Source: Candidatus Coproplasma stercoravium (GTDB taxonomy: Bacteria > Bacillota > Clostridia > Christensenellales > Borkfalkiaceae). From it: a stretch of DNA of 64,000 bases. The stretch lies in contig DVFR01000020.1 of assembly GCA_018713165.1 (NCBI GenBank), forward strand, positions 1 to 64,000, written 5' to 3'. The notes under the pieces were generated by a model. It saw only the letters and a program-made list of their open reading frames with translations. It was not told the DNA's origin and did no database searches. The translations under genes and the position numbers were made by a program. How positions within the stretch are numbered: the first letter of the stretch is position 1; every line of letters starts with the position of its first letter. Positions 2,078-54,583 of the stretch are shown here, piece by piece.

Positions 2078-3735
2078 TGCATTGCCTCCATAATCCGGTC
2101 GTACGCCGCCTTATCGGCGTCGAAAAAACCGCATACGTTGTCTGCGGGCACGTCGGCCTCCCTCACGCCCGAAACGGTGAACATCGCCGCGGCGAGCGCG
2201 TGAAGGTCGGCACTGTTTGCGAGCAGACCCTTTTTTGCCATATTTTTATACAGTCTTTCGGCGGCGCCGCAGAACCTGCCCGAATAGTCCTCGTCGAGAA
2301 TTCCGAAGCGGGATACGAGCACGGAGTACGCCGAAAGGAAATATTTGCGCTTGGAGCGCCCTATGTTGAGCGCGTAGATATCCACGCACTTGTATATGTT
2401 GCATATAACGACGCCGAACTGGTTGTCCTCGTTGCGCTCGCAGATGTCGTGCAACACGGCGATTTTGAGCGAATCGGAGATGAACGCGTCGAGAAGAAGT
2501 CCGCGCAGATAGTCGTCGTAGCCAGCCTTTACGGCGCACATCGCCGCGACGTAGTGGAGCTGGTTGTCGTCGGAGTTCTCCGTTTCGTCGAAACACCACT
2601 TTATGCATTCGAGCACGTTGACGTCCTTTGCCAGCCGCTTTGCGCTGCGTTTGGGCAGGCGGTAGTAGGACGAGAGAAATTCGAGCGAACTTTCGCGCAG
2701 CTCCTGGGGCAGGCGGTAGAAATAGCCGAACTCCTCCTCTTTGCCGGAATCGATGTTTTCGCGCGCGCGGCGCATATAGTAACGCGCCACCACGGCGTCG
2801 GGGTTGATGGTGAGGAGCTTGTCGAACGAAGCAAAGCTTTCGTCGTAGTGCCTGCTGTTGTAGGCGGATATCGCCTTGAAATACAGCACGGTGGTATCGT
2901 ACGAAAATTCGCCCTCCAGCTTTGAAAAGAGCGCGAACGCCTCGGCGTGCAGCTTGTTTTCGCAGCAGACCGTGGCAATCTTGTATATGTCGTCGGGGTT
3001 GGTCGGGTTGAGCTTTACCAGCCTGTATGCAAGTTCCCTGCCCTCTTCGGCCTTTTTCTGCTCGGTCTTTACCGCGGCGAGCGTGGTGAGCGCCTGAACG
3101 TCGTCGGGCTTTTTGGAGAGAATGGAGAGGCACTCCTTTTCCGCCTCCTCGGCCTTGTCGCAGATTATGTTGCACATGGCGATATAGTTGCGCGCCGAAA
3201 GATAGCGAGGGTTGCCCTCCGCCACCTTTTCAAACTCCGAAACGGCTTTATCGTACTGCTGCGCGCGCATATACTCCACCCCGCGCGACATCTCGGCCAA
3301 ATAGTCGGCGATTTCGGGCGGGTAGGCGAATTTTAAGGGGTTTTCCTGCCTGCGCAAAAAGTTATCGATAATCTCGCGCCTGCTCTCGGGCGAGAGGTCG
3401 TCCGTTTCTATGAGCAGCTTGTTGTAGTAATACGCCGCGAAATGCTCGTTATCGATATTCATAAAGTCGACGGCGAGCCCCTCGTACGCGTCGGCCAAAT
3501 CGCCGTCTGGAGCCTCGTCGAGATAGCGGAACCAATAGTTTATCGAACGCTCGTAGAGCTCCATGTCGTCGAATGCTTCGGCATACAGCATAAATGAGCG
3601 GTCGTCGTCGTAATTGAGTTCGGCGTTTTTGTTCAGAATTTTAAGCGCGCCTATTAAGTTGTGGTCGTCCAGCATATCGGCGGCTATCGCTAAAAGCCGC
3701 TCGTCGCTGAAATCAATCTCTTCGGTTTTACTCAT
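2074..3735 (-). CDS. TPR-repeat protein
   Basis: Multiple TPR-like units (e.g. YDKAVSEFEKVAEGNPRYLSARNYIA). Confidence 0.8.
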   Translation of the reverse strand: MSKTEEIDFSDERLLAIAADMLDDHNLIGALKILNKNAELNYDDDRSFMLYAEAFDDMELYERSINYWFRYLDEAPDGDLADAYEGLAVDFMNIDNEHFAAYYYNKLLIETDDLSPESRREIIDNFLRRQENPLKFAYPPEIADYLAEMSRGVEYMRAQQYDKAVSEFEKVAEGNPRYLSARNYIAMCNIICDKAEEAEKECLSILSKKPDDVQALTTLAAVKTEQKKAEEGRELAYRLVKLNPTNPDDIYKIATVCCENKLHAEAFALFSKLEGEFSYDTTVLYFKAISAYNSRHYDESFASFDKLLTINPDAVVARYYMRRARENIDSGKEEEFGYFYRLPQELRESSLEFLSSYYRLPKRSAKRLAKDVNVLECIKWCFDETENSDDNQLHYVAAMCAVKAGYDDYLRGLLLDAFISDSLKIAVLHDICERNEDNQFGVVICNIYKCVDIYALNIGRSKRKYFLSAYSVLVSRFGILDEDYSGRFCGAAERLYKNMAKKGLLANSADLHALAAAMFTVSGVREADVPADNVCGFFDADKAAYDRIMEAMQ

Positions 3736-4556
3736 TTAAATAACTTATCTATGTCGTCCTGCCCGAATTTGTAGTCGGTGTTGCAGTAGTGGCAGTGCAC
3801 CGAAATTTCGCCCTGCTCTTTTATTATGTCCTCAAGCTCGCTTTTTCCCATGGTGAGCAGAATGGCGCTTATCTTTTCGCGCGAGCAGTTGCACTTATAC
3901 CCGGGTTCGGTGATATATACGTGCTCGCCGCCCGTCTCCTTTGCAAAGTATTTCTTTAAAACGCCCTCTGCGCCCAGAAGGCGGATATCTTCGGCGACGT
4001 CGCCTATCTCCTCAGTTTTTTTAAGTACCGTCTCCCTCGCCGCGTCGTCTGCGCCGGGGAGAAGCTGCATGACTATTCCGCCCGCCGCAAGGCACTTTTC
4101 TCCGTCGAAGAGCGCGCCCACGCGCACTTTTGTGGGAATTTGTTCGGAGAGCTCGAAGTAATGTTCGAAATTCTGCGAAACGTCGTCGGAAATGAGCTCG
4201 CACGCGCCCGTGAAGGGGCGGAAAAAGCCGTCGTCCTTTATAACGGTCATAAAGCCGCCCGCAAGCCTGCCTTCGGCGGAGCCGTCGATATAGCCGCGCA
4301 TATGCAGGCTGATATCACCCGAAACGCTGGCAGAACCCGCGCCCGAGGCGCCCTTTATAGTGATTGAAATGGCGCCCTTTTCGCTCTTTAAACAGCCCGA
4401 CATATACACGCCGCAGGTAAGAAGCTCGCCGAGCGTCTTTGCCGCGGCGGGTGCGAGACCGTGTATGTCGCGCGCACGCTGAACGAGGCCGGTAGTTTCG
4501 GTTACGGTGAGCGAAACCTGTTTATTGCAAATCAGAGTTTTGTATAATCTGTTCAT
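3732..4556 (-). CDS. hslO: Hsp33 redox-regulated chaperone
   Basis: Full-length Hsp33; zinc motif CNCS...CHYC at C-terminus. Confidence 0.93.
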   Translation of the reverse strand: MNRLYKTLICNKQVSLTVTETTGLVQRARDIHGLAPAAAKTLGELLTCGVYMSGCLKSEKGAISITIKGASGAGSASVSGDISLHMRGYIDGSAEGRLAGGFMTVIKDDGFFRPFTGACELISDDVSQNFEHYFELSEQIPTKVRVGALFDGEKCLAAGGIVMQLLPGADDAARETVLKKTEEIGDVAEDIRLLGAEGVLKKYFAKETGGEHVYITEPGYKCNCSREKISAILLTMGKSELEDIIKEQGEISVHCHYCNTDYKFGQDDIDKLFK

Positions 4557-4571
4557 AAAAAAACACCTTAT

Positions 4572-4750
4572 TCACGAAATTCTCGCGCAAGCCGTGCGCG
4601 ACAATTTCCGTGATTTTAGGGGCACTGCCCCTCTTTGCGCAATCATAAGAGCCCACGAAGCGTATAATTGCGCAAATTCACCCTGCTGAGGCGCAGGTAT
4701 GCGCAAATTGAGTCCTGCTGCGGCGGCACAGCCGCCTTGCGACATAATTT
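4572..4750 (-). repeat. Structured intergenic element, copy A (~179 nt, 5 hairpins)
   Basis: Aligns with 8422-8605 (-) and 37418-37598 (+); helices conserved with compensatory changes. Confidence 0.75.
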
Positions 4751-4878
4751 ATTTCAAAATAATGATTGTCATACTGCACGCGCGAGGCGTTAGCCGAAGC
4801 TCTGCCGAGGGACTCATGCTTGTGGGAAACGGCAGAATGAATCTCGGAGCTGCCTAATGTCCGCCGCAAGGCGGCGCA

Positions 4879-5613
4879 CTACACCGCTCGGCAGATAAAG
4901 TTTATCCTCAGGCTGTCCTCTCTGAGCGGCTCGCCGAGGTGCCCCTCCGTGCGCAGCACTTCAAACCCGCAGCCGTGCAATGCGGCGGCAATATCATCCG
5001 CTTTGTGCGCGTACTGCACATGCCGCTCGTCCTCGCGCCTGAACAGCCCGTCGCCCGCGGGCGTGAACACCGTGATGTCCATTATCGCCTTTTCGCCGTC
5101 GAATTTGTTGAACCAGAGGTAGGTTATATCGTCCAAATCTTCGGCAAACAGATTGTCGCCGAGCACGTTTTTCAGCTTGTATTCGCTGCTGATATCGAAC
5201 ACGAATGCGCCGCCCTTTTTGAGGCAGGAGCGCACGTGCGAGAACGCCGCACAAAGTTTTGCGGGCGGAACGTAGTTTATGCAGTCGTTTACGGCGACGG
5301 CGAAATCGACCCGCTTTAACAGTTTTAGTTTGGTTATATCGCCCAGTAAAAATTCGGCGCGCACACCCTCGCGCGAGGCAAGCTCGCGCGCCTTTTGCAG
5401 CATTTCGGGCGAGATATCCACGCCGCAGACCTCCTTGCCCGCCCTATACAGCGCGCGCGTAAAATAGCCGTTGCCGCAGCCGATATCAGCTCCGCACGCG
5501 CCCGCGCCGAGCTCCTCCAGCGTTTTAATTAAATACTGCGACCATTTATCATAGCCGCAGTCTGAATTTAAATATTCAAATTTGCCGCCGAGGGCGGCGT
5601 AACTCTCTTTCAT
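4879..5613 (-). CDS. Class I SAM-dependent methyltransferase
   Basis: ADIGCGNGYFTRALYRAGKEVCGVDIS motif I. Confidence 0.85.
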   Translation of the reverse strand: MKESYAALGGKFEYLNSDCGYDKWSQYLIKTLEELGAGACGADIGCGNGYFTRALYRAGKEVCGVDISPEMLQKARELASREGVRAEFLLGDITKLKLLKRVDFAVAVNDCINYVPPAKLCAAFSHVRSCLKKGGAFVFDISSEYKLKNVLGDNLFAEDLDDITYLWFNKFDGEKAIMDITVFTPAGDGLFRREDERHVQYAHKADDIAAALHGCGFEVLRTEGHLGEPLREDSLRINFICRAV

Positions 5614-7044: not shown

Positions 7045-7232
7045 GTACTGAATAGAGGAGCGGGCGAGCATAAGTACACGCGGAGTTGAATTTTAAGGGA
7101 ATTTTTATTCTCCGCGTCGAAAGGGTATCTCCGCCGAAGCGCAAGCCGCCTTGCCTTGCGCTGGGTGCAAAGGTCAATACCTTTGCAACTGTCGCTTTAT
7201 GCGTTGCGCTTTTCGGTAGAGACTTACAGTTT
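7045..7232 (+). ncRNA. Lysine riboswitch (L-box)
   Basis: AGAGGAGCG...AAGTA...GCGTCGAAAGGG...GCCGAAGC...GCTGGGTGCA...GCAACTGTC...AGAGACTT in consensus order; directly upstream of asd. Confidence 0.85.
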
Positions 7233-7242
7233 AAGTTTTTTA

Positions 7243-7274
7243 CCCGCAGGCGCCGCCCGCGGGATTTTTATTTC
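7243..7274 (+). terminator. Riboswitch expression-platform terminator
   Basis: CCCGCAGGCGCCGCCCGCGGG hairpin followed by ATTTTTATTT, between L-box and asd. Confidence 0.7.
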
Positions 7275-7343
7275 CGCAGCGGCAGAATTCACGGCACTCA
7301 ACCGCTGCTCAGGGCTTTATACAAAATTTTGGAGTTTATATAC

Positions 7344-8417
7344 ATGAAAAAATTCAACGTGGGCGTTATCGGCGCCACGGGCATGGTGGGACAGCGTTTC
7401 CTGCTCTTGCTCGAAAATCATCCCTGGTTCAACGTAACCTGCCTTGCCGCATCCTCTTCCTCCGCGGGAAAGAAGTATAAAGATGCGCTCCGCCGCTGGC
7501 ACATGAGCACGCCCATGCCCGATAAATATGCGGATATGGTCGTTTATGACGCCTCTGCCGACAAGGAGAAAATTGCCTCCTCGGTAGACTTCTGCTTCTG
7601 CGCGGTAAACATGAAAAAGGACGAGATAAAGGAGCTCGAGTATGCGTATGCAAAGCTCGAATGCCCGATAGTTTCCAACAACAGCGCGCACCGCTTTACG
7701 CCCGACGTGCCCATGGTTATCCCCGAGATAAATGCAGACCATATTTCGGTTATAGACGCGCAGAAGAAGCGCCTGGGCACCAAACGCGGCTTTATAGCGG
7801 TGAAGAGCAACTGCTCGCTGCAATCTTACGTTCCGCTTTTGCACCCGCTTAAAAAATACGGAATAAAGAGCGCGGCCGTTACCACATATCAGGCGATATC
7901 GGGCGCAGGCAAGACCTTTGAGACAATGCCCGAGATTATCGACAATATAATACCCTACATCGGCGGCGAAGAGGAAAAAAGCGAAAAAGAGCCGCTTAAA
8001 ATCTGGGGCAAAGTTGAGGGCGGCGAGATAGTGCCCGCCTCCTCCCCCGCGATAACAGCGCAGTGCCTGCGCGTTCCCGTATCGGACGGACACACCGCGG
8101 CGGTATTCGTAAACTTTGAGAACAAGCCGACCAAGGAAGAAATTCTCTCCGCGTGGGAAAATTTTGAGGGCGAACCCCAGAGGCTCAACCTCCCCTCCGC
8201 GCCCAGACAGTTCATACATTATTTTGAAGAGGACAACCGCCCCCAGGCAAAGCTCGACAGAATGACCGAAAACGGCATGGCCGTTTGCGCGGGCAGGCTT
8301 AGGGAAGACAATGTGTTCGACTATAAATTCGTCGGACTTTCGCACAACACCCTCCGCGGCGCGGCGGGCGGCGCGGTACTTTTAGCCGAACTTCTTGCGG
8401 CGAAGGGATATATTTAA
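7344..8417 (+). CDS. asd: Aspartate-semialdehyde dehydrogenase
   Basis: MKKFNVGVIGATGMVGQRF N-terminus, catalytic SNCSLQ; RBS TTGGAG; start placed after the riboswitch rather than the ORF-track TTG at 7086. Confidence 0.93.
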   Translation: MKKFNVGVIGATGMVGQRFLLLLENHPWFNVTCLAASSSSAGKKYKDALRRWHMSTPMPDKYADMVVYDASADKEKIASSVDFCFCAVNMKKDEIKELEYAYAKLECPIVSNNSAHRFTPDVPMVIPEINADHISVIDAQKKRLGTKRGFIAVKSNCSLQSYVPLLHPLKKYGIKSAAVTTYQAISGAGKTFETMPEIIDNIIPYIGGEEEKSEKEPLKIWGKVEGGEIVPASSPAITAQCLRVPVSDGHTAAVFVNFENKPTKEEILSAWENFEGEPQRLNLPSAPRQFIHYFEEDNRPQAKLDRMTENGMAVCAGRLREDNVFDYKFVGLSHNTLRGAAGGAVLLAELLAAKGYI

Positions 8418-8421
8418 ATTC

Positions 8422-8605
8422 TCACAGATTTTCCTTTTGGTGACAAAGGAAAATCTTCGTGATTTCGGGGAGCCAGCTCCCCCTTGCCCCGATTTTTAGA
8501 AGCTCTCTTATTATATAATCGGGGCAATTCCCCTTTGGTGAGCCCGCTTACGCGGCAAATTGAGTCGCGCTAACGCAGGGAAACCCTGCTTGCGCACATT
8601 ATTTT
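8422..8605 (-). repeat. Structured intergenic element, copy B (~184 nt, 5 hairpins)
   Basis: Aligned with copies A and C in reverse complement. Confidence 0.78.
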
Positions 8606-8634
8606 TTATTAACAGCACATTATTTTTTATTAAC
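8593..8634. repeat. Tandem direct repeat, 2 x GCACATTATTTTTTATTAACA
   Basis: Two exact consecutive copies at the edge of structured element B. Confidence 0.85.
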
Positions 8635-9023
8635 ACTTGTCATTTCGACTGAAGCCGAAGGCGAAACGGAGAAATCTATTCCGCATTAAAGCCTCCTTTA
8701 ATGCTTTAGTTTTAAGGGAGCTGGCACGGACGAGCTATGCGAGACCGTAACGGAGGGATTGCCGCACATACCTATCCCCCTTTAATTTCCCCTTAAGCAA
8801 AGGGGGACGAGGGGCCACATGTATGCTCACACGCCGCAAGGTTGCACAAAGTGCAATCCATAACGCCGACGAAGGCGGTTCATCACCCATCCGCGGCGAA
8901 GCCGCTCATCACTTGCCGCAGGCACCATTGCCCTGCATATATGCGGCAATTAACTTGCAAAAGTCAATTATTTTAAAATTACAAAATATTATAATAAAGA
9001 GAAAATATAGCGGAGGCATTGAT

Positions 9024-29754: not shown

Positions 29755-30485
29755 TCCATCTCTCCGAGTTCAAAAAGTACGATTGCGCTGAGCGCTATCG
29801 CCGCCGTTTCGGCGCGCAATATGCGCTTGCCGAGGGTTATCCCATTAAAACCATATTTTTCGCGCGCGAGCGCGTATTCCTCTTCGGCAAAGCCGCCCTC
29901 GCTGCCCACGACTATGGCGGTTGAGCCCGTTAATTTGCGCATATCTGCCTGCGAATTGTGTTCAAACTCGCACGCAAACAACTTATTTTCGTAGCCTTCG
30001 GCAGATGCGAGCGCGTCTTCAAACCTCTCGAAAATTTCGACTTTGGGCGCAACGGAGCGCATGCACTGCTTCGTCGCCTCGCGCGCGACCTTATTCAAGC
30101 GTTCAAGTTTGGAGCCCGTGAGATATGCGGCGCAATACTTTGAGCCGAACACGCCTATCGACGATACGCCGAGCTCCGTCGCCTTCTGCACGATAAGCTC
30201 GGTCTTGTCGCCCTTCAAAGCGCCGCACAAAAGGCGCACCTTCGTTTTCGGCTCCTTGTCGCCGACGGTGAAGCCCGTGATATGCGCCGTCATCGAGCGC
30301 TTGCCGCAGGCGGCTATTATTGCCGAGTACTCCCGTCCGCTGCCGTCTAAAAGGGTAATCTCCGCGCCGACGGAAAGCCGCAGAACGTTTTTTGCATGGT
30401 TGAACTGCTCGCCTTCGAGCTCAACCTCGCCTGATTTCGGATAATCTATTATATTTTCGGTTAAAAATCTCTTCGGTGCTGACAT
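29751..30485 (-). CDS. rsmE: 16S rRNA (uracil-1498-N3)-methyltransferase
   Basis: IVVGSEGGFAEEEYALA, LGKRILRAETAA SPOUT motifs. Confidence 0.92.
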   Translation of the reverse strand: MSAPKRFLTENIIDYPKSGEVELEGEQFNHAKNVLRLSVGAEITLLDGSGREYSAIIAACGKRSMTAHITGFTVGDKEPKTKVRLLCGALKGDKTELIVQKATELGVSSIGVFGSKYCAAYLTGSKLERLNKVAREATKQCMRSVAPKVEIFERFEDALASAEGYENKLFACEFEHNSQADMRKLTGSTAIVVGSEGGFAEEEYALAREKYGFNGITLGKRILRAETAAIALSAIVLFELGEME

Positions 30486-30540
30486 TATTTTACTCTGTAT
30501 TTTAAAATTGCCCCGCACATATGCGGCAACTACTGCATTT

Positions 30541-30601
30541 TAATTGAGGGAACGCCCCCAAAAATCACGTAAAAAGATTTGCGTCACCGGCAAAGCTTTT
30601 T
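30541..30601 (+). repeat. Partial copy (3' portion) of the 180-nt structured element
   Basis: GGG..CCC small hairpin followed by TCACG...GTCACC...CGTGA hairpin as in copy B. Confidence 0.55.
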
Positions 30602-30608
30602 CGTGAAC

Positions 30609-37218: not shown

Positions 37219-37417
37219 TATGGCGAGATTTCTCCGCTTCACTCACTCCGTTCGTTACGGTCGAAATGACAGGTCAGAGAGAACATTTATGCCGCAGTAT
37301 GTAGCGCGGCGGCCCGCGCGTTAAGCATACTGCGGCATTTTAGATAATTTTTACCTTATTATAAGCTTTAAATTAAAACACTTTCACCGAAAAAAATTTT
37401 TCGGCGAAATTTGAATT

Positions 37418-37598
37418 AATAATGTTTGCAAGCAAGGTTTCCTTGCGCCGCAAGACACAATTTGCTGCGGCAGCAGGCTCGCCGAAAGTGAATTGCCGCG
37501 ATTATATAATCGTGGGCCCTTAAAAATCGCGGCAAGAGAAACTTAGTTTCTCCGCCTCACGAAAAATGCCGCGCTCGGCCAGCGCGGCATTTTTGTGA
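37418..37598 (+). repeat. Structured intergenic element, copy C (~181 nt, 5 hairpins)
   Basis: Aligned with copies A and B. Confidence 0.78.
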
Positions 37599-37601
37599 AT
37601 A

Positions 37602-39002
37602 CTATTTCATGAAAGCTATAAACGCCCTGTAATTGCTGTATAAATCCGCCTTGGAGATGAGCTCCCAGGGAGCGTGCATGGAAATTACGGGCACGCCCAA
37701 ATCAACCGTGTCGATATTGAGGTTGGCAAGGTACTTTGCAACCGTACCGCCGCCGCCCGCGTCGACCTTGCCGAGCTCTGCCGTCTGCCATACCACGCCG
37801 TCACTCTCGAACATGGCGCGCACCTCGCCTACAAATTCGGCGTTGGCGTCGTTGGAACCGCTCTTGCCGCGCGCGCCCGTGAATTTGTTCATGCAGGTGC
37901 CGCAGGCGAGCATTGCCGAGTTCATGCGCTCGTAAACGCTGGCGAAGTTGGGGTCGTAAGCCGCGGTTACGTCGGAGGAGAGGCACTTGGAAACATAGCG
38001 CGTTTTACGGAAAGATGCGCCCATTGCCTCGCATATATCCTCCAACAAATCGGAATAAATCCTGCTCTGCATACCCGTGTTGCCCTCGCTGCCTATCTCC
38101 TCCTTGTCGACGAGCATGGCAACGACGGTGTGTTCGCTTTCGTTATTCAAAACGGCGGTGAGCGCGGGATATGCGCACACCCTGTCGTCGTGGCCGTATG
38201 CGCCGATGAGAGCACGGTCGAAACCTATATCGCGCGCGGGATATGCGGGAACGGCCGAGAGCTCTGCCGAAATGAAGTCCTCCTCGCACATGCCGTACTT
38301 TTCGTTTAAAATGTTGAGCACGGTGAGTTTAATCTTCTTTTCCACCTTTTCGTCGTCGTAGGGCATGCTGCCGACGACTACGTTGAGCTGTTCGCCCTCT
38401 ATAATCTTCGCGCCGCCCTTCGCCATCTGCTCCGCGCCGAGGTGGGGAAGAAGGTCGTCGATGTAGAACACGGGGTCGGCGGGGTCTTCGCCCACCTTTA
38501 TTTCAACCTTTTTTCCGTTCTTTAAAACTACAACGCCGTGAAGCGCGAGGGGAATGGTCGTCCACTGATACTTTTTGATTCCGCCGTAGTAGTGCGTCTT
38601 TAAAAAGCAGAGCCCCGCCTCCTCATAGAGCGGATTCTGCTTTATGTCCACTCTCGGCGCGTCGATGTGCGAAGCTATGAGGCGGAAGCCGTCCTCTTCG
38701 AGGTTTTTCGTGCCGACGCGGAACACGACCACGCTCTTGCCGCGGTTTACGAAATACTTTTTGTCGCCCGCGCCGAGCTTATCGCCGAACTTATACTCGG
38801 TAAAGCCCGCGTCCTTCGCCATTTTAACGGCAACTTCGCAAGCCTCGCGCTCGGTTTTTGCATTGTCGAGGAAGGTTTTATAGCCCTCGGCGTAGTCGAA
38901 AATCGCCTTGCGCTCCTCCTTGGAAGCAACCGTGAAATAATTCTTCTTTTCGTAGGCAAGCTCGTCGTAGCGCTCCTGCCCCTTGCTCTTTTTTTCAGAC
39001 AT
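37602..39002 (-). CDS. M18 family aminopeptidase
   Basis: LIASHIDAPRVDIK, DKEEIGSEGNTGM, GARGKSGSNDANAE, ISMHAPWELISKADLY. Confidence 0.93.
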   Translation of the reverse strand: MSEKKSKGQERYDELAYEKKNYFTVASKEERKAIFDYAEGYKTFLDNAKTEREACEVAVKMAKDAGFTEYKFGDKLGAGDKKYFVNRGKSVVVFRVGTKNLEEDGFRLIASHIDAPRVDIKQNPLYEEAGLCFLKTHYYGGIKKYQWTTIPLALHGVVVLKNGKKVEIKVGEDPADPVFYIDDLLPHLGAEQMAKGGAKIIEGEQLNVVVGSMPYDDEKVEKKIKLTVLNILNEKYGMCEEDFISAELSAVPAYPARDIGFDRALIGAYGHDDRVCAYPALTAVLNNESEHTVVAMLVDKEEIGSEGNTGMQSRIYSDLLEDICEAMGASFRKTRYVSKCLSSDVTAAYDPNFASVYERMNSAMLACGTCMNKFTGARGKSGSNDANAEFVGEVRAMFESDGVVWQTAELGKVDAGGGGTVAKYLANLNIDTVDLGVPVISMHAPWELISKADLYSNYRAFIAFMK

Positions 39003-51127: not shown

Positions 51128-51210
51128 GCAGATATGGCGGAACTGGCAGACGCGCGGGACTTAGAATCCCGTGGTTCACCGTGCAGGTTCGACTCCTGTT
51201 ATCTGCACCA
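51128..51210 (+). tRNA. tRNA-Leu(TAG), CCA encoded
   Basis: Acceptor GCAGATA/TATCTGC, anticodon loop CTTAGAA, long variable arm, T-arm GGTTCGACTCC, terminal CACCA. Confidence 0.93.
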
Positions 51211-54129: not shown

Positions 54130-54320
54130 AAATGCAAAACGAAAAACGCACGCGGCAGGTCTTCCGGCTTACAACAGCGGTTTTTGTGCCGCACCCCTTC
54201 CCATATGCGGCAGAACAACGTTCTGCCATGCACACAGTGGTGAGCGGCGCCGCTGAAACGGCAGCGGGGGCTGCGGGGCAATTGGCCCAGACTTCCCTAT
54301 TAAACGCCCCTATCTTATCG
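54130..54320 (-). ncRNA. Cobalamin (adenosylcobalamin-type) riboswitch
   Basis: Minus strand TAATAGGGAAGTCTGGGCCAATTGCCCCGCAGCCCCCGC...CGCCGCTCACCACTG...GGGAAGGGGTGCG...GTAAGCCGGAAGACCTGCC. Confidence 0.92.
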
Positions 54321-54583
54321 GGGCGTGCCTGCATGCGCCATTCAGTTTTGGAATATTTTATATTTTTGCGACGCATATGTCAAGCAATAACCCGATAAAC
54401 GGCGCAAAAATGGCTTAAAACGCACTTTTTTTGCATAATAATAGCATAAGCAGGCGCTTTGCGACTGAAATATTATATATTTGACAGCGGCGGCGGCTTA
54501 TGATAAAATTTAACCGTAAAGTATCTGTGCGGATATGCGCATTTGCGCTGGTTTAAGAGCGGATTGCCGCGACCCGGAGATTT

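Follow-up and report, generated by a model that had tools for sequence, protein, structure and literature searches.

The window, that is, the whole stretch of 64,000 nucleotides analysed here, carries three full-length copies, A, B and C, of a folded element whose positions and parts are collected in Table 1. In all three, the 3′ end adjoins a gene. The GTGA that closes copy A lies 15 nt upstream of the start codon of hslO, copy B ends 4 nt beyond the stop codon of a convergent gene of the semialdehyde dehydrogenase family, and copy C ends 3 nt beyond that of a convergent M18 aminopeptidase gene. Reading of the sequence confirmed the coordinates and helices that a first-pass annotation had assigned to the three copies. 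Their folding beats that of dinucleotide shuffles (z = -4.8, -5.3 and -4.9 for A, B and C, respectively) and the mean column identity of the three-copy alignment is 77%. The layout could also be refined. The 5′ hairpin consists of a stem with a bulged G, P0, around P1; most copies have an extra small hairpin, P2b (TCACT.GGA.AGTGA), that separates P2 from P3; and P5 contains a conserved unpaired G (TCAC-G-stem-GTGA). An alignment of 24 copies further revealed the conserved unpaired motifs CAATTTG and GTGGGC. The P2 loops of many other copies are of the GNRA type, and P5 of copy C has a shape resembling a bidirectional intrinsic terminator. A degenerate or related copy, two riboswitches, a tRNA gene and short repeats flanking A, B and C are also present in the window.

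Table 1. Coordinates of the elements, their parts and other features. Positions refer to the window unless a locus is given.
Feature	Position	Strand	Details
hslO	3732-4556	minus	
Copy A, full length	4572-4752	minus	143.7 bits, E = 1.3e-38 (covariance model)
Semialdehyde-dehydrogenase-family gene	7086-8417	plus	
Copy B, full length	8422-8605	minus	179.4 bits, E = 6.5e-49 (covariance model)
Copy C, full length	37416-37598	plus	193.5 bits, E = 5.4e-53 (covariance model)
Copy C, 5′ module	37424-37456	plus	P0 enclosing P1; read from sequence and covariation
Copy C, P0	37424-37429 with 37450-37456	plus	one bulged G
Copy C, P1	37432-37437 with 37441-37446	plus	
Copy C, P2 hairpin	37465-37476	plus	CTGC-GGCA-GCAG; sequence and covariation
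Copy C, P3 and loop	37493-37535	plus	TTGCCGCGATT with AATCGCGGCAA; loop holds conserved GTGGGC; sequence and covariation
Copy C, P4	37536-37552	plus	GAGAAAC-TTA-GTTTCTC; sequence and covariation
Copy C, P5 (3′ end hairpin)	37557-37598	plus	TCAC-G-stem-GTGA; sequence and covariation
M18 aminopeptidase gene	37602-39002	minus	
Degenerate or related copy	30451-30606	plus	22.9 bits, E = 3.6e-4; end hairpin TCACG...CGTGA at 30565-30606
Short repeats flanking A-C	8630-8750, 4780-4900, 37250-37270		CTCCCTTAAAACTAAAGCATTAAAGGAGGC; TTCGCCTTCGGCTTCAGTCGAAATGACA-like; CCCTCGGCAGAGCTTCGGCTAACGCCTCGCG
Lysine riboswitch	7045-7219	plus	
tRNA gene	51128-51207	plus	
Cobalamin riboswitch	54137-54348	minus	
Second-family copies	L172:19622-19661, L183:1541-1580, L187:14452-14493, L206:2175-2216, others		
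Intact IS200-type Y1 gene (L212)	G000:C25:15630-15986		has end hairpins of its own that are unrelated to those of the element
Broken pieces of another IS200-type Y1 gene	G000:C47:8938-9293		

Copies A, B and C are members of an apparently uncatalogued family of hairpin repeats of ~180 bases, with roughly 60 copies per genome here. A BLASTN search with copy C gave 52 matches in its own genome (1,701,711 bases in 49 contigs, 94% complete). We then used a covariance model built from 24 aligned full-length copies of this genome, with helices P0, P1, P2, P2b, P3, P4 and P5 assigned by hand, which gave 80 matches at E ≤ 1. Of these, 56 have an E value below 1e-17, a density of about one good copy per 30 kb. 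One of the copies of this genome (L023) lies directly upstream of an FMN riboswitch, and head-to-tail copies separated by 6-14 nt occur in the family. A search of relatives, as the first-pass annotation had proposed, located the element in 34 of the 37 genomes sampled from a single genus of gut Clostridia, which is probably Candidatus Coproplasma. Element-bearing genomes contain from 1 to at least 43 copies, and five of them, the own genome included, contain at least 43, while the remaining three genomes of the sample (G008, G012 and G025) have zero recognised elements. The element was absent from all 24 genomes sampled from the order's other families, and in a 200-genome sample of the order matches were confined to the genus, apart from weak ones in a single sister genus, which belongs to the same family. 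Phages, plasmids and viral contigs gave nothing convincing, the single plasmid match being 33 nt long and chance-like. Neither the window, at gathering score, nor six copies searched at E ≤ 5 matched any Rfam family, HEARO included. The family thus extends far beyond three copies and, as described below, it covaries, both in agreement with the earlier proposal of a dispersed folded nucleic acid that is either selected or mobile.

Mobility, ends and exchange of hairpins

In genome G002, copies up to 99.5% identical are found at unrelated loci, and their similarity stops abruptly on the left at about TTCTAAAATAA and on the right at GTGAAC. Because near-identical copies at unrelated loci have the same sharp ends, we conclude that the element moves or is copied. 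The left and right ends (TTCTAAAATAA... and ...GTGAAC) are not inverted with respect to each other, that is, there are no terminal inverted repeats. Direct repeats at the ends showed no excess (7 observed among 155, 6.7 expected), and the stretches read contained no long version in which the end modules flank an ORF.

The same genomes contain a second family of ~115 nt, which shares the P0/P1 module and the TCACG...CGTGA end hairpin but has no P2-P4, and several of whose copies adjoin gene ends (Table 1). In the sister genus, repeats of ~100-230 nt display similar end modules and a CAATTTGC motif. The combination of common ends and variable middles suggests that the ends are recognised by the moving machinery. 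Among the sister-genus repeats L358, L359, L360, L362 and L363, some are tandem and some have long nested inserts.

Whole hairpins are exchanged among copies. A reshuffling test that took in P1, P2, P3 and P5, and left out P4, showed that many allele pairs among these helices occur in all four combinations in 130 copies. At a site shared by G000 and G030 (L111/L205), the elements are near-identical but their P3 stems differ around almost the same loop, and at another shared site (L175/L229) an identical middle is accompanied by a quite different P5 hairpin. This mosaic structure therefore points to frequent recombination or conversion between copies. In addition, other small hairpin repeats, such as CGCACAATGGGTGTCCATTGTGC and TCCCTCCGTCACGC...GTTAAGGGAGGC, replace or interrupt the 5′ part (L010, L021 and L024), P2 (L011 and L028) or the vicinity of P4 (L189, L197 and L200) of individual copies, and element-bearing genomes contain several nested short-repeat families.

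We consider that the element is probably a non-coding, non-autonomous mobile DNA repeat of ~180-190 bp, with a fixed 5′ module (P0/P1), an exchangeable middle (P2/P2b/P3/P4) and a fixed 3′ hairpin (P5, TCACG...CGTGA).

Anchoring at gene edges and shared sites

To describe the position of the element with respect to genes, we counted 151 copies of four species and considered as anchored any end located within 25 nt of a coding-sequence edge. The 3′ end was anchored in 118 copies and the 5′ end in 24; the ORF rule lets in some chance starts, though both sides were treated alike and the flanks show the anchoring directly. In 78 of the 118 anchored copies, the 3′ end lies by the stop codon of a convergent gene, in antisense and mostly 1-9 nt off, and in the other 40 it precedes a start codon in sense, mostly at 9-15 nt and just ahead of the ribosome-binding site. 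Anchoring is no less frequent among recent copies (16 of 19 at the 3′ end, 4 of 19 at the 5′ end). Thus, anchoring most likely arises at insertion, and later deletion beside the 3′ end is an unlikely cause of it.

We also compared 30 pairs of copies located at the same gene boundary in four species with 76-91% identity in the flanking DNA. In seven pairs the best match is the counterpart at the same boundary, and five of these are 92-96% identical, a similarity that, judged from the sequences, is due to vertical inheritance. For most of the remaining pairs, the resemblance does not exceed that of randomly chosen copies (64-70%). The M18 site holds a different subtype in each of G000, G002 and G030, and the element is absent there from G003, G015, G016 and G033; G003 and G015 present a terminator-like hairpin in its place. 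Either repeated insertion at favoured boundaries or conversion of old copies would explain this pattern. Upstream of hslO, only an isolated P5-like hairpin is present in two other species, one species has a partial derivative of the element and nothing can be recognised in three, which does not sustain the earlier idea that copy A is an hslO-specific leader. Since elements have been kept through speciation at some shared sites, a local function is possible.

These observations bear on the possibility that the copies are gene-boundary cassettes kept by the host, in which P5 acts as a terminator, mRNA-end stabiliser or ribosome-stalling hairpin and selection retains the helpful copies. For E. 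coli REPs located close to stop codons, a ribosome-stalling role has been proposed. The location of elements 1-9 nt past stop codons or right before ribosome-binding sites, the terminator-like hairpins at the empty M18 site and the presence, in several species, of an element or P5-like hairpin at the same boundary all argue for this possibility. P5 is terminator-shaped in 10 of 79 stop-side copies and in 1 of 41 start-side copies; however, this difference is not significant (p = 0.095) and only suggestive of a terminator chosen by context, and in most P5s the U-tract after the GC core is missing. Furthermore, recent copies are already anchored, so that selection after insertion is not needed, and three species of the genus do without a recognised element. 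As the main explanation, we find host-kept cassettes unlikely; such a role is compatible, as a secondary one, with the element being a mobile repeat.

Covariation and base-pair usage

The covariation test used 40 matches taken from loci in 29 other genomes. Both sides change in 52 of 57 pairs, pairing cells reach 92.3% (67.5% when shuffled), and the covariation score is 0.563, compared with 0.169 for shuffled alignments and no more than 0.105 after sliding of the partners; none of 500 shuffles reached the score. The alignment was fitted to the model and is hence biased toward structure, a bias that is far too small for the effect seen. Also, RNAalifold on a MAFFT alignment of copies of the own genome predicted 43 pairs, 31 of which change on both sides. 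The compensatory helix changes described for A, B and C in the first-pass annotation therefore hold for the family.

Such very strong covariation favours a dispersed non-coding RNA, as had been suggested for the three copies, or a family of leaders, in either case selected for the RNA fold and spread by duplication. The GNRA-type P2 loops, the conserved unpaired motifs and the 40 copies located in sense directly upstream of start codons speak in the same direction. The base pairs themselves argue against it. G-U pairs account for 1.8% of the standard pairs in the 24 copies of the own genome and for 0.9% in 33 copies of other species, with ratios of one-sided to two-sided changes of 0.07 and 0.02, respectively. 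In contrast, the lysine riboswitch of 30 genomes of the same genus, taken as a control with a mean identity of 0.68 (0.67 and 0.61 for the elements), showed 14.6% of G-U pairs and a ratio of 0.74. The ratio of G-U to A-C is 1.2-2.6 in the element and 9 in the riboswitch, and 29 distinct alleles of P1 and 41 of P2 include one G-U allele each. The RNA reading is unsupported for two reasons: the element has hardly any G-U pairs or one-sided changes, both of which the riboswitch of the same genus does have, and the abutting genes are more often antisense than sense (78 versus 40). The number of copies, which goes from one to dozens per species and is zero in three species, and the lack of an Rfam family also count against an RNA family, which we regard as distinctly unlikely. 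Strict Watson-Crick pairing with little strand preference fits, at the sequence level, what is expected of palindromic DNA or of arms that are renewed together. Finally, P3 displays a mild excess of G-U over A-C (16 versus 2), which, together with the GNRA-type P2 loops, allows for some selection acting on RNA of the plus strand and for a minor RNA role.

Candidate movers and relation to known repeats

We searched draft genomes, in which absence is not absolute, with profiles for five possible partner enzymes: Y1, RVT_1, the TnpB zinc ribbon, the IS110 Transposase_20 and DDE_Tnp_1. RVT_1 is absent from G000, G002, G016 and G030, the IS110 transposase (PF02371) from 10 genomes that include the four copy-rich ones, and DDE_Tnp_1 from all four copy-rich genomes studied. 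None of the five enzymes tracks copy number, and we reject them as movers. The remaining proposal of the first-pass annotation was a hairpin transposon derived from IS200/IS605 or an omega/reRNA relic, for which a Y1 transposase would be the mover. It is largely refuted and highly improbable: hairpins with unpaired bases do lie near both ends, no target duplication is visible and Y1 genes exist in 12 of 38 genus genomes, the own one included, but Y1 (PF01797) is absent from G002, G016 and G030, three of the four copy-rich genomes studied, each with at least 43 copies, IS200 copies carry their own end hairpins and no element lies within 1.5 kb of any Y1 gene examined, the TnpB zinc ribbon (PF07282) is absent from the 12 genomes searched, the four copy-rich ones among them, and HEARO is among the Rfam models without a match. 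An intact IS200-type Y1 gene and broken pieces of another are listed in Table 1.

BOX elements of Streptococcus pneumoniae are modular hairpin repeats in which end modules surround variable inner modules; their host is unrelated, and the number of inner modules varies in BOX, whereas in the element the inner modules change identity. REPIN/REP sequences are intergenic, high-copy DNA hairpins with common compensatory changes (PMC3116915), features also found here, and the position of the element near stop codons resembles that of E. coli REPs, which frequently lie at a distance of 1-20 nt from ORF 3′ ends (PMC12306157). Unlike a REPIN, which is an inverted doublet, the element consists of several dissimilar hairpins in a fixed order. 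It also departs from REP/REPIN-RAYT systems in that three of the four copy-rich genomes have no RAYT/Y1 gene and none of the Y1 genes examined is linked to the repeats, and from REPs in that, by eye, no GTAG or CGTC tag lies beside P5, which is preceded by AAA(C)TCACG. The bcr1-bcr18 repeats of the Bacillus cereus group are group-specific, interspersed and structured, behave like MITEs and are often parts of UTRs (PMC3446304); compared by description only, the element has another host and shows anchoring of one end at coding edges and hairpin-wise reshuffling. ERIC/IRU, YPAL/RU-2 and CIR repeats measure 100-200 bp, are non-coding or nearly so, strongly folded and mobile, and lie in the untranslated regions of their neighbours, and the mover of most repeats of this type is unknown (PMC2229807). 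ERIC is bounded by terminal inverted repeats and has TA ends, and YPAL generates target duplications; neither property was seen in the element. The closest layout is that of CIR, which is made up of two hairpin arms and a linker.

The ends of the element lack the terminal inverted repeats of MITEs. It is also unlike IS605/OMEGA systems (no TnpB-type nuclease in 12 genomes and no match to HEARO/omegaRNA models), IS110 bridge-RNA elements (no IS110 transposase in 10 genomes), retroelements such as group II introns and retrons (no reverse transcriptase in four element-rich genomes) and, in its 0.9-1.8% of G-U pairs as opposed to 14.6%, structured non-coding RNAs such as the lysine riboswitch. Overall, the element works like REPIN, bcr and ERIC/YPAL/CIR repeats, but the differences given above set it apart from REPIN and ERIC, and probably from bcr. 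Since it lacks those defining features of REP/RAYT, MITE and OMEGA that were tested, we place it apart, among the small structured mobile repeats of bacteria.

For a mobile DNA repeat of this kind, the entity maintained would be palindromic or folded DNA, as a single strand or a cruciform. Its two end modules may be recognised by an enzyme or by host replication and recombination, and hairpins would be swapped as units, either because copies convert one another or because one arm serves as the template for the other. The element may affect neighbouring genes: a copy landing just outside a ribosome-binding site or past a stop codon would become part of the 5′ or 3′ untranslated region of the gene, and P5 may sometimes replace the terminator of the adjoining gene. 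More doubtful is the broader picture of a mobile hairpin element that reaches scores of copies in genomes nearly free of common transposases, by a host-driven or other enzyme route that targets coding-sequence edges, and whose arms are renewed jointly by templated copying, giving covariation without RNA selection.

A functional RNA is usually proved by covariation. This family passes a shuffle-based test overwhelmingly, yet its scarcity of G-U pairs and its exchange of hairpins one by one point to palindromic DNA, which makes it a useful counter-example for RNA discovery. A simple check would be to compare the G-U fraction and the ratio of one-sided to two-sided changes with those of a known RNA of the same genus. 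The family also poses the question of what moves a high-copy hairpin repeat where transposases are few, and why one of its ends stops at the edge of a gene.
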